Assembly: GCF_014696225.1 (NCBI RefSeq)
Contig: NZ_JACJPV010000010.1
Span: 62,001 to 126,000 of the forward strand
Length of the DNA stretch: 64,000 nt
Reading direction: 5' to 3'
DNA from: Anabaena sp. FACHB-1237
GTDB taxonomy: Bacteria; Cyanobacteriota; Cyanobacteriia; Cyanobacteriales; Nostocaceae
Shown: positions 46,841-62,006 of the stretch, in pieces
Position numbering within the stretch: position 1 is the first letter of the stretch
Layout of the letters: the number at the start of each line of letters is the position of its first letter
Translations under genes and position numbers: made by a program
Notes under the pieces: model-generated
What the model saw: only the letters and a program-made list of their open reading frames with translations
Told to the model about the DNA's origin: nothing
The model's database searches: none

Positions 46841-51294
<4,454 letters not shown>

Positions 51295-51502
51295 CTGTCA
51301 GGAGATCGAGGAGTCAGGACTCAGGAGTCAGAATAAATAATTTTCTCCCTGTTTCCTGTTCCCTAAAAATGAGCAAATCTGAAAATTAATATTACAAAAT
51401 ATTAAGAACTGTCATAAATGCTCACCATAATGTCAGAGAATAATTTTCGTAAGGTAATTGAGTTTTCCCAGTTGCTTGTGTAATTACCTCAACTGAGTTA
51501 AC

Positions 51503-51521
51503 CACTATAGTCAATATAGTG
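51503..51521. promoter_or_regulatory. Palindrome CACTATA-GTCAA-TATAGTG before apcA
   Basis: Seven perfect pairs about 47 bp upstream of the apcA start. A second weak pair AGGTAATT/AATTACCT surrounds 51452-51489. The site could be an operator, part of a promoter (TATAGT resembles a -10 box) or an mRNA 5' hairpin that stabilises apcA. Which one is not decidable here. Confidence 0.45.
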
Positions 51522-51567
51522 TTACCATTTTTAAGTTCAGGTTCATTAGTTTTGGAGGAATCCATTA

Positions 51568-52053
51568 ATGAGTATCGTCACGAAAGCTATCGTGAATGCT
51601 GATGCAGAAGCTCGCTACCTCAGCCCCGGCGAATTAGATCGTATTAAGAGCTTTGTTGGTGGTGGCGCACAACGTCTCCGCATCGCTCAAGTTTTAACTG
51701 ACAACCGCGAGCGCATTGTTAAGCAAGCTGGCGACCAATTGTTCCAAAAACGTCCTGATGTTGTTTCTCCAGGTGGAAACGCTTACGGACAAGAAATGAC
51801 CGCTACCTGCCTTCGTGACCTCGACTACTACTTGCGTCTTGTAACCTACGGAATCGTTTCTGGCGATGTTACCCCCATCGAAGAAATTGGTATCGTTGGT
51901 GTACGTGAAATGTACAAATCTTTAGGCACTCCCATTGATGCTGTTGCTGGTGGCGTTGCTGCTATGAAGAGCGTTGCTTCTACCTTGTTATCTACTGATG
52001 ACGCTGCTGAAGCTGGTGCTTACTTCGACTACGTTGTTGGTGCAATGGCGTAA
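51568..52053 (+). CDS. apcA: Allophycocyanin alpha chain
   Basis: 161 residues of the phycobiliprotein fold. Cys81 in [20 protein letters not shown] carries the phycocyanobilin. It pairs with ApcB to build the core trimers. GGAGGA before the ATG is a strong ribosome site, and codon choice is noticeably richer in C-ending codons than in neighbours, as expected for a very highly expressed gene. 69 bp separate it from apcB. Confidence 0.98.
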
Positions 52054-52122
52054 GTTGAAGCTAAGATAGCTGTATAAACTGAAACCTTTTGCAATCAATT
52101 TGGAAATAAGGATATAACAACA

Positions 52123-52608
52123 ATGCAAGACGCAATTACCTCTGTAATTAATTCCTCCGACGTTCAAGGTAAATACCTTGATACCTCTGCTTTAGAAAAG
52201 CTCAAAGGCTACTTCGCTACTGGTGAACTTCGCGTTCGTGCCGCAAGCACCATCAGCGCTAATGCTGCTGCGATCGTTAAAGAAGCTGTAGCTAAATCTT
52301 TGTTGTACTCTGATATCACCCGTCCCGGTGGTAATATGTACACCACTCGCCGTTACGCAGCTTGTATCCGTGACTTGGATTACTACTTGCGTTATGCTAC
52401 CTACGCTATGTTAGCCGGCGACACCTCTATTCTTGAAGAGCGTGTATTAAACGGTTTAAAAGAAACCTACAACTCTTTAGGCGTTCCCGTTGGTGCTACC
52501 GTTTCTGCTATCCAAGCTATCAAAGAAGTAACTGCTAGTTTGGTTGGTCCTGACGCTGGTAAGGAAATGGGCGTTTACTTAGACTATATCTCCTCTGGCT
52601 TGAGCTAA
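52123..52608 (+). CDS. apcB: Allophycocyanin beta chain
   Basis: 161 residues. Cys81 in [14 protein letters not shown] binds phycocyanobilin and Asn71 in RPGGNMYTT is at the conserved methyl-asparagine position. It forms the alpha-beta unit with ApcA. AAGGA lies 10 bp upstream. A long stem-loop follows in the gap to apcC. Confidence 0.98.
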
Positions 52609-52659
52609 GAGTGGGTTTGCACTTAGTTATTGCTCAGTGATTTAGGTGCGACTGATTAA

Positions 52660-52748
52660 GTCTGAAAATCAATTATCAGTGCCAGAAAGTTCTCTTGCTG
52701 ATTGATTGTAAGTGTTAGCAGTCTAGTATTGATGATTGATTTTCGGAC
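52660..52748 (+). promoter_or_regulatory. 19-bp stem-loop between apcB and apcC
   Basis: GTCTGAAAATCAATTATCA (52660-52678) pairs with TGATGATTGATTTTCGGAC (52730-52748); 17 Watson-Crick pairs and two G-U pairs in RNA, with a 51-base loop that itself has TTGCTGATTGATTG text. No T-run follows, so it is more likely a stabiliser or attenuator than a plain terminator. It would allow more apcA-apcB than apcC message. Confidence 0.65.
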
Positions 52749-52873
52749 TTTGGAAAAAATAATTAAAGATTTTCACTCAAGATATTACTCAAGATTTTTG
52801 AGATAAATTTGAGATAAGTTTGAGATACAAAAGTTTCCAAATTTCCCAACATTATCAGGAGATTAAAAAGAAA

Positions 52874-53080
52874 ATGGCTCGTTTATTTAAAGTAACTGCT
52901 TGTGTTCCTAGCTTAACTCGCACTCGCACCCAACGCGAATTACAAAATACTTATTTTACAAAGTTAGTTCCTTATGAAAACTGGTTCCGTGAACAACAAC
53001 GGATTCAAAAAATGGGTGGCAAGATTGTTAAAGTTGAATTAGCTACTGGTAAGCAAGGTACTAACACTGGTTTGCTGTAA
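52874..53080 (+). CDS. apcC: Small core linker ApcC
   Basis: 68 residues (MARLFKVTACVPSLTRTRTQ, then LVPYENWFREQQRIQKMGGK), the 7.8-kDa linker that caps core trimers. I use ATG 52874, preceded by AGGAGATTAAAAAG; the frame is open upstream to 52820 but that part is leader. Fewer copies than ApcA/B are needed per core, which fits the stem-loop upstream. Confidence 0.97.
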   Translation: MARLFKVTACVPSLTRTRTQRELQNTYFTKLVPYENWFREQQRIQKMGGKIVKVELATGKQGTNTGLL

Positions 53081-53140
53081 TTGTTATAAATTCAGTTATA
53101 AATCAGATATAATTTGTGAGTTTATTTTATCAGATTTTCC

Positions 53141-53165
53141 AGGGGTCAGGGATGACCTCTTTTTT
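53141..53165 (+). terminator. Rho-independent terminator of the apc operon
   Basis: AGGGGTCA (53141-53148), loop GGGA, TGACCTCT (53153-53160), then a run of T to 53165. Eight pairs (one G-U) and a T-tract 60 bp after apcC make it the likely end of the operon. Confidence 0.8.
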
Positions 53166-53223
53166 ATCGGTATGCGGAGTGTGAAGTGCTAAGTTTGAGG
53201 GTTTAGCAGTGATTTTCTGCACT

Positions 53224-53331
53224 TACAGCACATTCCATCTACATGAGGTACACTATGAACACAGCAAGATGCCTGTGTTACAAGGGTTTTATCATTAACA
53301 TCTGTACCTCATAATAACGGAAACTGTTGTA
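53224..53331. mobile_element. TACAGCA/ATGAGGTACA MITE, copy B
   Basis: 108 bp with inverted ends TACAGCACATTCC and GGAAACTGTTGTA and subterminal ATGAGGTACA on both arms. Nearly identical to 37587-37719 without its 23-bp insertion. It encodes nothing. Confidence 0.85.
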
Positions 53332-53344
53332 TTTTTAGTTTTTT

Positions 53345-53365
53345 AGGACCGACGCAAGTCTCACA
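53345..53365 (+). repeat. Diverged end of the AGGACTTACGCA element
   Basis: AGGACCGACGCAAGTCTCAC matches the end of 37433-37580 at about 18 of 21 positions. It lies 13 bp after MITE copy B and before the tnpB remnant. No matching inverted partner is found nearby. Confidence 0.5.
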
Positions 53366-53397
53366 CCAAAAATCTTTTGTTAAGCTGAAGGGATATG

Positions 53398-53705
53398 GGA
53401 TTTGATCAATTCAGAAAGCAGTTAGAATATAAAACACAACTATATGGCAGTAAGTTAGTAGTTGTAGATAGATTTTATCCTAGCAGTAAAACTTGCCCTG
53501 ATTGTGGAGAGAAAAATCTCAATTACCACTAACACAGAGAGTGTTTAAATGTGGTAAATGCGGTTTTGAGTGTGACAGAGATTGAAACGCGGCAACAAAT
53601 TTAAAAAAAGAAGTGGTTAGATTAACCCTGTTAGCCGGTGGACTGGATAGTGCCGACACTTCTAAGATAAAGCAGGAAGAAAAAGGGAACTTTTGTTACC
53701 ATTAG
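53398..53705 (+). pseudogene. tnpB remnant (IS200/IS605 family), C-terminal part
   Basis: The frame from 53398 reads FDQFRKQLEYKTQLYGSKLV, then VVDRFYPSSKTCPDCGEKN, the last RuvC part and first half of the TnpB zinc finger, and stops at TAA 53530. After a frameshift near 53520 it goes on as LPLTQRVFKCGKCGFECDRD, has TGA at 53583, then NAATNLKKEVV. So CPDC...CGKC and the final catalytic Asp of DRDxNAA are recognisable but the gene is dead. The front two-thirds and tnpA are missing. Confidence 0.85.
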
Positions 53706-61862: not shown

Positions 61863-62006
61863 TTAACTGCCCGCTTCATAAGCTGTTTTAATCCATAATT
61901 CCCGCGCTTGATTAATATTGATCATTATCTCTTGTAGGGTTTATGCTTGAGTAGAACATCCAGGTAAATTTTTTATTTCTGCTACATAACCAAAGATACT
62001 CACTAC
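61863..62006 (-). pseudogene. hicB-type antitoxin remnant
   Basis: On the minus strand the frame reads GYVAEIKNLPGCSTQA, a stop, then TLQEIMININQARELWIKTA and YEAGS. This is the HicB core (AEVPDLPGC, then a helix ending in ELWxxTA) with one TAA inside and no start codon in frame upstream. No hicA is next to it. It fills most of the gap between the amidase and HNH genes. Confidence 0.75.

Follow-up and report, generated by a model that had tools for sequence, protein, structure and literature searches.

Phycobilisome proteins rank among the most abundant that cyanobacteria make, and a basic question is how core subunits and linker come from one operon in very unequal amounts. It arises at the locus described here, in a window of 64,000 nucleotides from Anabaena sp. 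FACHB-1237 (positions 62,001 to 126,000 of contig NZ_JACJPV010000010.1). The window carries apcE, apcA, apcB and apcC, of which apcA and apcB encode the abundant part of the operon products, and a long stem-loop lies in the 265-nt gap between the apcB stop (52608) and the apcC start (52874). An earlier reading, made from the letters alone and here called the sequence-only reading, had noticed an inverted repeat in this gap and proposed that it sets the ratio of subunits to linker by protecting the apcAB message or by stopping part of the transcripts. The inverted repeat is indeed present where it was described. We find that the apcB-apcC element is a conserved structured RNA within the apcABC messenger. 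As to its function, on balance we lean towards the stem marking and protecting the 3' end of the apcAB part of the messenger, which would set the core subunit ratio.

In the window, positions 52658-52682 pair with 52726-52750 to form an uninterrupted 25-bp stem with four G-U pairs and a 43-nt loop. The 19 bp originally described (52660-52678 with 52730-52748, two G-U pairs) are real but make up just part of this longer stem. The predicted fold of positions 52640-52770 has an energy of -43 kcal/mol, versus -23.3 +/- 3.5 kcal/mol for 200 dinucleotide shuffles (z -5.7), and none of the 200 was as good. When stems with loops of up to 70 nt were compared throughout the 64 kb, this one was the longest uninterrupted stem and the runner-up had 16 bp; the longest stems in five whole-window shuffles had 15-17 bp.

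Conservation was assessed within Nostocaceae (hereafter the family) and in a class sample of 388 genomes from 159 genera. A protein search with ApcC in 145 family genomes gave a match in 144, with G013 matching weakly (E 1.4e-4). From these 144, 110 loci were analysed, 30 of them returned by the search and 80 chosen to spread over genera, and a scan with ApcB added 80 further named loci. Loci without a gap (L008, L094, L104, L165 and L179) were left out. The regular expression for the core missed 34 of 185 gaps, and 115 distinct cores were kept: 85 from the family and 30 from named ApcB loci, among which L169, L178, L183 and L188 are not Nostocaceae by name. Alignment A1 holds 53 of 57 representatives (48 from the family and 5 named others) with 38 pairs, four cores longer than 130 nt having been excluded, and alignment A3 holds 65 of 76 sequences (15 from the family, 7 named and 43 from the class search) with 24 pairs. 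A covariance model, R1, was seeded on 53 rows, and a wider model, R2, was used alongside it; their scores for the window element are 85.9 bits (R1) and 61 bits (R2).

The consensus of the relatives is approximately AAGGUCUGGAAAUCAAUCGUGAGUGCUAGAACGUU...GCUUAUC-loop-GAUGAGUGUUAGCGGUCUAGUAUUGAUGnUUGAUUUCCAGCCUU, and its two arms change together. In A1, 95.5% of cells are paired, versus 93.2% after partners were shuffled and 30-42% after the 3' arm was slid, and two-sided changes occur at 16 pairs versus 7.9 in shuffles. The corresponding value for A3 is 92.3% of cells paired, with 83.8% for shuffled partners and 24-50% for the slid arm. Two-sided cells number 147 versus 64 in shuffles, and 16 pairs have two-sided changes versus 12.3, a number reached in 4 of 500 shuffles. 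Shuffling partners takes no account of relatedness, and sliding the arm is a control biased towards a structure read from the data. The sequence-only reading had suggested that this gap be compared in related genomes, and the comparison shows the pairing to be kept well outside the circle of close relatives; it lies on the mRNA strand, where the main subunit genes give way to the linker gene. The window element has the covarying pairing, the orthologous place and the sense strand by which the apcB-apcC structure is recognised.

Strand and spacing are also regular. At every locus with scores listed for both strands, the sense strand has the higher score, as expected from the recurrent G-U pairs. 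The distance from the apcB stop to the element has quartiles of 39, 39 and 40.5 nt in the family (range 16-75, n=85) and a median of 62.5 nt outside it (n=52; here and below, counts on the 52 non-family elements leave out L252 and L259). Column identity was averaged over 42 family gaps 200-262 nt long. It is 0.82 before the element, 0.83 within it (variable loop included) and 0.75 after it, and the first 30 nt of apcC reach 0.84. Within the family, constraint therefore extends over the entire first half of the gap and is not confined to the long stem. One 15-column A+T-rich block downstream of the element reaches a mean identity of 0.90 in the same gaps. In the upstream part there is a small hairpin (Table 1). 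A helix of at least 7 bp is predicted for it in 47 of the 49 distinct segments that family members have there, and it shows compensatory variants such as ACACUUGA/UUGAGUGU and GCAUCUAA/UUAGGUGC.

Pairing along the full length of the arms, which had been singled out as a notable trait, is atypical; the stems of most relatives are interrupted, often by a G.G mismatch. Midway along the stem, GUGAGUG lies opposite UAUUGAC with G facing G in 49 of 53 rows of A1 and 61 of 65 rows of A3, two sets that share rows and whose far members, found via a family-seeded model, have a G.G rate biased upward. The window member, with C-G at this site, is an exception. The G-U pairs beside the mismatch are kept as well (column pair 26-99 of A3 is G-U in 60 of 65). 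Folds were predicted for the 115 elements (L002-L191) and for 54 others. The longest helix free of interruptions measures 11 bp in 57 of the 115 and ranges from 6 to 19 bp in the 54; it reaches 15 bp or more in 38 elements of the first set and 7 of the second. The 25-bp helix of the window is the largest of all 169 elements, and no other among the 115 exceeds 22 bp.

Because this mismatch core goes beyond what a stabilising stem needs, in our view it points to a specific feature, for binding or against cleavage. It could also belong to a specific regulatory RNA, in which a protein binds the G.G core and controls apcC translation, processing or mRNA location according to antenna state; candidate binders would be an RNA-binding protein, ribonuclease III or, by feedback on its own message, a phycobilisome subunit. 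We consider such a regulator possible but doubtful. It would account for the GUGAGUGCUAG/CUAGUAUUGA core with its G.G, the recurrent G-U pairs, the predominance of 11-bp helices and an identity within the family about as high as that of the apcC start. Yet no partner is known, the window member does without the G.G, helices of at least 15 bp do occur, as counted above, other families carry other hairpins or none, and a model trained on near members favours the core when it finds far ones. Taken further, the element would be an uncatalogued cis-acting RNA, present in much of the class, whose G.G core is read by a dedicated factor that couples core assembly to apcAB/apcC expression, with one family of the class sample (f16) having lost both element and gap. 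We put this version forward tentatively, as a minority view.

Above the long stem, the apical region of many relatives carries, besides a variable loop, an extra helix (GCUUAUC/GAUGAGU type) that can reach 8 bp. This region bears on the proposal that a small RNA precursor is cut from the gap. A precedent exists in the same operon, since ApcZ arises from the 3' end of apcABC and represses ocp translation (PMC8136909), and the gap likewise holds a conserved stable structure. The conserved columns are mostly paired, however, the apical loop varies in both length and sequence, and no conserved unpaired seed-like stretch was seen, so we judge a small RNA precursor very improbable. ApcZ (SyR2) is, like the gap element, an RNA of this cyanobacterial operon, but it starts inside apcC, whereas the element lies upstream of apcC and is thus not ApcZ.

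Across the class, R1 gave matches in 98 of 388 genomes and 58 of 159 genera (E<=0.01). Loci were fetched for 89 of these 98 genomes (L195-L283), and all 89 have the match between apcB and apcC. A script confirmed 88 of these, and L252, with its two matches, was inspected by eye. At L252 (G463:C6:977970-983531), two strong elements stand 3.5 kb apart, one after apcB and one before apcC, and probably represent two apc copies. R2 gave matches in 185 genomes and 97 genera (E<=1). At E<=1e-3 there were 168 genomes, the other 17 of the 185 lying above this value, in 26 of at least 43 families, two of which (f20 and f21) were counted by model match and not by genomic context. On family loci picked by ApcC, R2 matched 99 of 100 (L003-L102) and 9 of 9 (L103-L111), or 108 of 109, and some of the ApcC-picked loci scored in this way are also training rows; the sole miss, L008, is a locus at which no apcB was found upstream. 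In the smaller search space of the ApcC-picked loci L284-L353, 27 of 70 reached E<=0.01, comprising 20 of 20 with an earlier R2 match, 7 of 20 earlier R2 misses and none of 30 from match-less families. Outside f16, the gaps of these loci often hold another hairpin, and in 44 of 62 the fold z, from 40 shuffles per gap, is at or below -3.0. An extra apcC-like gene stands between apcB and the ApcC match in f42 and f43, two divergent families (L351, L352 and L353), and the gap before that gene has a short hairpin.

In the genome of the window, R1 finds one strong place; the sole other place scores 21.5 bits (E 0.45). A search of the plasmid collection for copies of the element gave no match. Six further loci were fetched for R2 matches, and five of them sit at apcB-apcC. 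The exception, G316:C2, scored E 6.6e-7 but has no apc genes; it is a palindromic repeat of TTGAC type and was rejected as a false positive, so that a model match alone is no proof and context matters. The match in G185 (E 0.04), a genome with no ApcC match, is probably due to chance. Long palindromes such as the one at G316:C2, away from apc genes, do occur in these genomes, and one might suppose that the apcB-apcC stem is itself a functionless mobile palindrome or a chance inverted repeat. We give this almost no credence: the single strong place in the genome, the orthologous position and the covariation strongly disfavour it.

No U-tract follows the stem in the window, where the tail reads TGGAAAAAATAA, and nearly all family members are alike in this respect, 83 of 85 having at most 3 T among the 8 nt that come next. 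Outside the family, the same 8 nt contain at most 3 T in 33 of the 52 elements, 4 T in 10 and 5-6 T in 9. Without a U-tract, partial intrinsic termination is unlikely in this lineage, and this part of the original interpretation, that the stem stops a share of the transcripts, is not supported here; the conserved pairing, the mRNA strand, the subunit/linker boundary and the parallel in the cpc genes speak for the interpretation. A partial terminator or pause site, past which only some polymerases reach apcC, seems to us unlikely. It would be in keeping with a strong stem at an operon boundary and with the nine non-family elements that have 5-6 T, and cyanobacteria are without known Rho; in one studied cyanobacterium a hairpin with a U-tract marks only 22% of transcription units, and many cyanobacterial ends are non-canonical (PMC13289151). 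Set against this are the missing U-tract in the window and the family, a stem longer than the usual terminator hairpin, and the presence of a terminator-like site after apcC, which was the 1 canonical site found by a terminator scan in which shuffles averaged 1.8. An intrinsic terminator in particular is disfavoured for the window and for the 83 of 85 family elements, less clearly so outside the family.

A role in protection or processing at the 3' end of apcAB fits the place best. The stable stem-loop lies 3' of apcAB within the operon, which is the position expected of a stem in selective RNA processing and stabilisation. If cuts are made downstream, perhaps in the A+T-rich stretch before apcC, exonucleases degrading the message backwards from them would halt at the stem; apcAB would then outlive apcC, leaving many ApcA and ApcB per ApcC in the core. 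The recurrent G.G mismatch and G-U pairs would probably be what a ribonuclease or an RNA-binding protein specifically recognises, or what keeps cleavage away. Protection, processing, the effect on the subunit ratio and any protein partner are all steps that we infer, and the stoichiometry idea is plausible, if unproven.

Several observations weigh against a protective stem as the explanation. The identity of the element, close to that of the apcC start, together with the kept mismatch, exceeds what a merely protective stem needs, and something more specific than protection may be the main job of the element; this high identity is not unique to it, given the value for the gap upstream. An ApcC match is present in 335 of the 388 class genomes, versus 185 with an R2 match, so that at least 150 ApcC-bearing genomes are without one, and in f16 the apcB-apcC gap is 0-43 nt, which leaves no room for the element (8 of 8 loci checked). 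In these genomes the element may be dispensable, replaced or too diverged for the model. Among the non-family elements, 19 of 52 have 4-6 T in the next 8 nt. Finally, a full-length apcABC-apcZ transcript is reported in Synechocystis (PMC8136909), which excludes a complete stop at the gap in that organism, where any stop would be incomplete.

The features of the gap and its surroundings are collected in Table 1. We take the phycobiliprotein genes to be apcA and apcB, and the gene before them to be apcE. The identity of apcC is given by 16 distinct matching PDB sequences named 7.8 kDa linker, LC or ApcC. Close matches among the named loci are Nostocales, e.g. Nostoc and Anabaena. The apcB-apcC gap had been called the only long gap of the operon, which is true inside apcABC, where apcA and apcB are 69 nt apart, but not overall, as the apcE-apcA gap is also long (273 nt). 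Two copies of AGGAGTCAG occur in the latter (51309-51331). The end of the long stem and the start of apcC are separated by 123 nt. There the A+T-rich stretch (52793-52838) has about 3 tandem copies of TTTGAGATA, while the relatives inspected have about 1, and partly because of these extra copies the gap measures 265 nt and not about 215-230 nt. GGAGTCA-type heptamer repeats were seen between the element and apcC at L003, L005, L007, L010, L011 and L019. Beyond apcC, an imperfect inverted repeat with 29-nt arms that are 72% complementary (53224-53331, with TGAGGTAC...GTACCTCA) precedes a short open stretch (53397-53530) that ends ...SSKTCPDCGEKN and then a stop. The open stretch looks like a remnant of the zinc-ribbon end of a TnpB.

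Table 1. Positions of the apcB-apcC element and of neighbouring features, numbered from the first letter of the window.
Feature	Positions	Strand	Basis
apcA, allophycocyanin alpha subunit	51568-52053	+	Open reading frame (ORF) and Pfam Phycobilisome match
apcB, allophycocyanin beta subunit	52123-52608	+	ORF and Pfam Phycobilisome match
Small upstream hairpin (GCACUUA...UAGGUGC); copy in the window has a loop insertion	52619-52649	+	
5' arm of conserved long stem	52658-52682	+	R1 match in own genome, E 7.3e-17
Upper part and apical loop	52683-52725	+	
3' arm of conserved long stem, without a T-run after it	52726-52750	+	
A+T-rich stretch (UUUUGAGAUAAA...AAAAGUUU), kept in relatives	52793-52838	+	
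Shine-Dalgarno-like AGGAGA of apcC	52857-52862	+	Sequence; also in consensus of 42 family gaps
apcC, small core linker (7.8 kDa)	52874-53080	+	Within ORF 52820-53080
Terminator-like hairpin and T-run 3' of apcC, in contrast to the gap stem	53141-53166	+	

Searches for an existing description of the element gave little. Rfam 15 had nothing over the gathering threshold in window positions 51200-53600 or in the loci of six relatives; sub-threshold matches numbered six in all, three of them microRNA models on the element. In the open literature searched (subscription papers lay outside its scope), no description of the apcB-apcC stem or of apcAB/apcABC transcript ratios was found, nor was the greater abundance of apcAB over apcABC transcripts that the sequence-only reading ascribes to other cyanobacteria. 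Older work on apc transcripts in Calothrix and Synechococcus reportedly exists. The available main text of a survey of 104 motifs contains neither "apc" nor "phycobili" (PMC2864571), and that of a study of RNase E and RNase J in Synechocystis contains neither "apc" nor "cpc" (PMC7283877).

The element is a candidate for a new RNA family and for a part with which cyanobacterial expression could be tuned. A deeply conserved RNA at the subunit/linker boundary, with a mismatch core and with natural variants such as the closed mismatch of the window and the short gap of f16, makes the question of unequal output directly testable.

One comparison comes from the same genome. In its cpc genes, the cpcB-cpcA gap is 87 nt (z -1.7) and the cpcA-cpcC gap is 284 nt with a long stem-loop (z -3.4); the fold of the apcA-apcB gap has z -1.2. 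The names cpcC and cpcD are those that the sequences suggest. Like the apcB-apcC element, the cpcA-cpcC stem-loop follows a main subunit gene at a short distance, with a linker gene next, but the two are unrelated. The possibility that the same RNA occurs at both places was rejected, as R2 gave no match (E<=1) at the cpcA-cpcC gap (L359, G000:C23:109188-110258, minus strand), where the next gene is linker-like.

Among systems described elsewhere, cip-cel of Clostridium cellulolyticum and puf of Rhodobacter resemble the apc case in having a stem-loop after the genes for abundant subunits inside an operon. That intercistronic stem-loops act in selective RNA processing and stabilisation is established in such systems. 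They set the ratio of subunits in cip-cel (PMC4423207), while puf, which like apc consists of photosynthesis genes, is listed as a case of stabilising intercistronic stem-loops (PMC8219983). The psaA, psbNH, PhotoRC, Cyano-1 and Cyano-2 motifs are candidate structured cyanobacterial RNAs, several of them beside photosynthesis genes (PMC2864571); they differ from the apc element in belonging to other genes, the psaA motif lying in potential 5' untranslated regions of psaAB. Unlike cip-cel and puf, the apc element keeps its sequence, its internal mismatch and its position across many families of the class. We class its putative working mode with the intercistronic stem-loops that stabilise messages, and as an RNA we count it as a conserved but uncatalogued structure.
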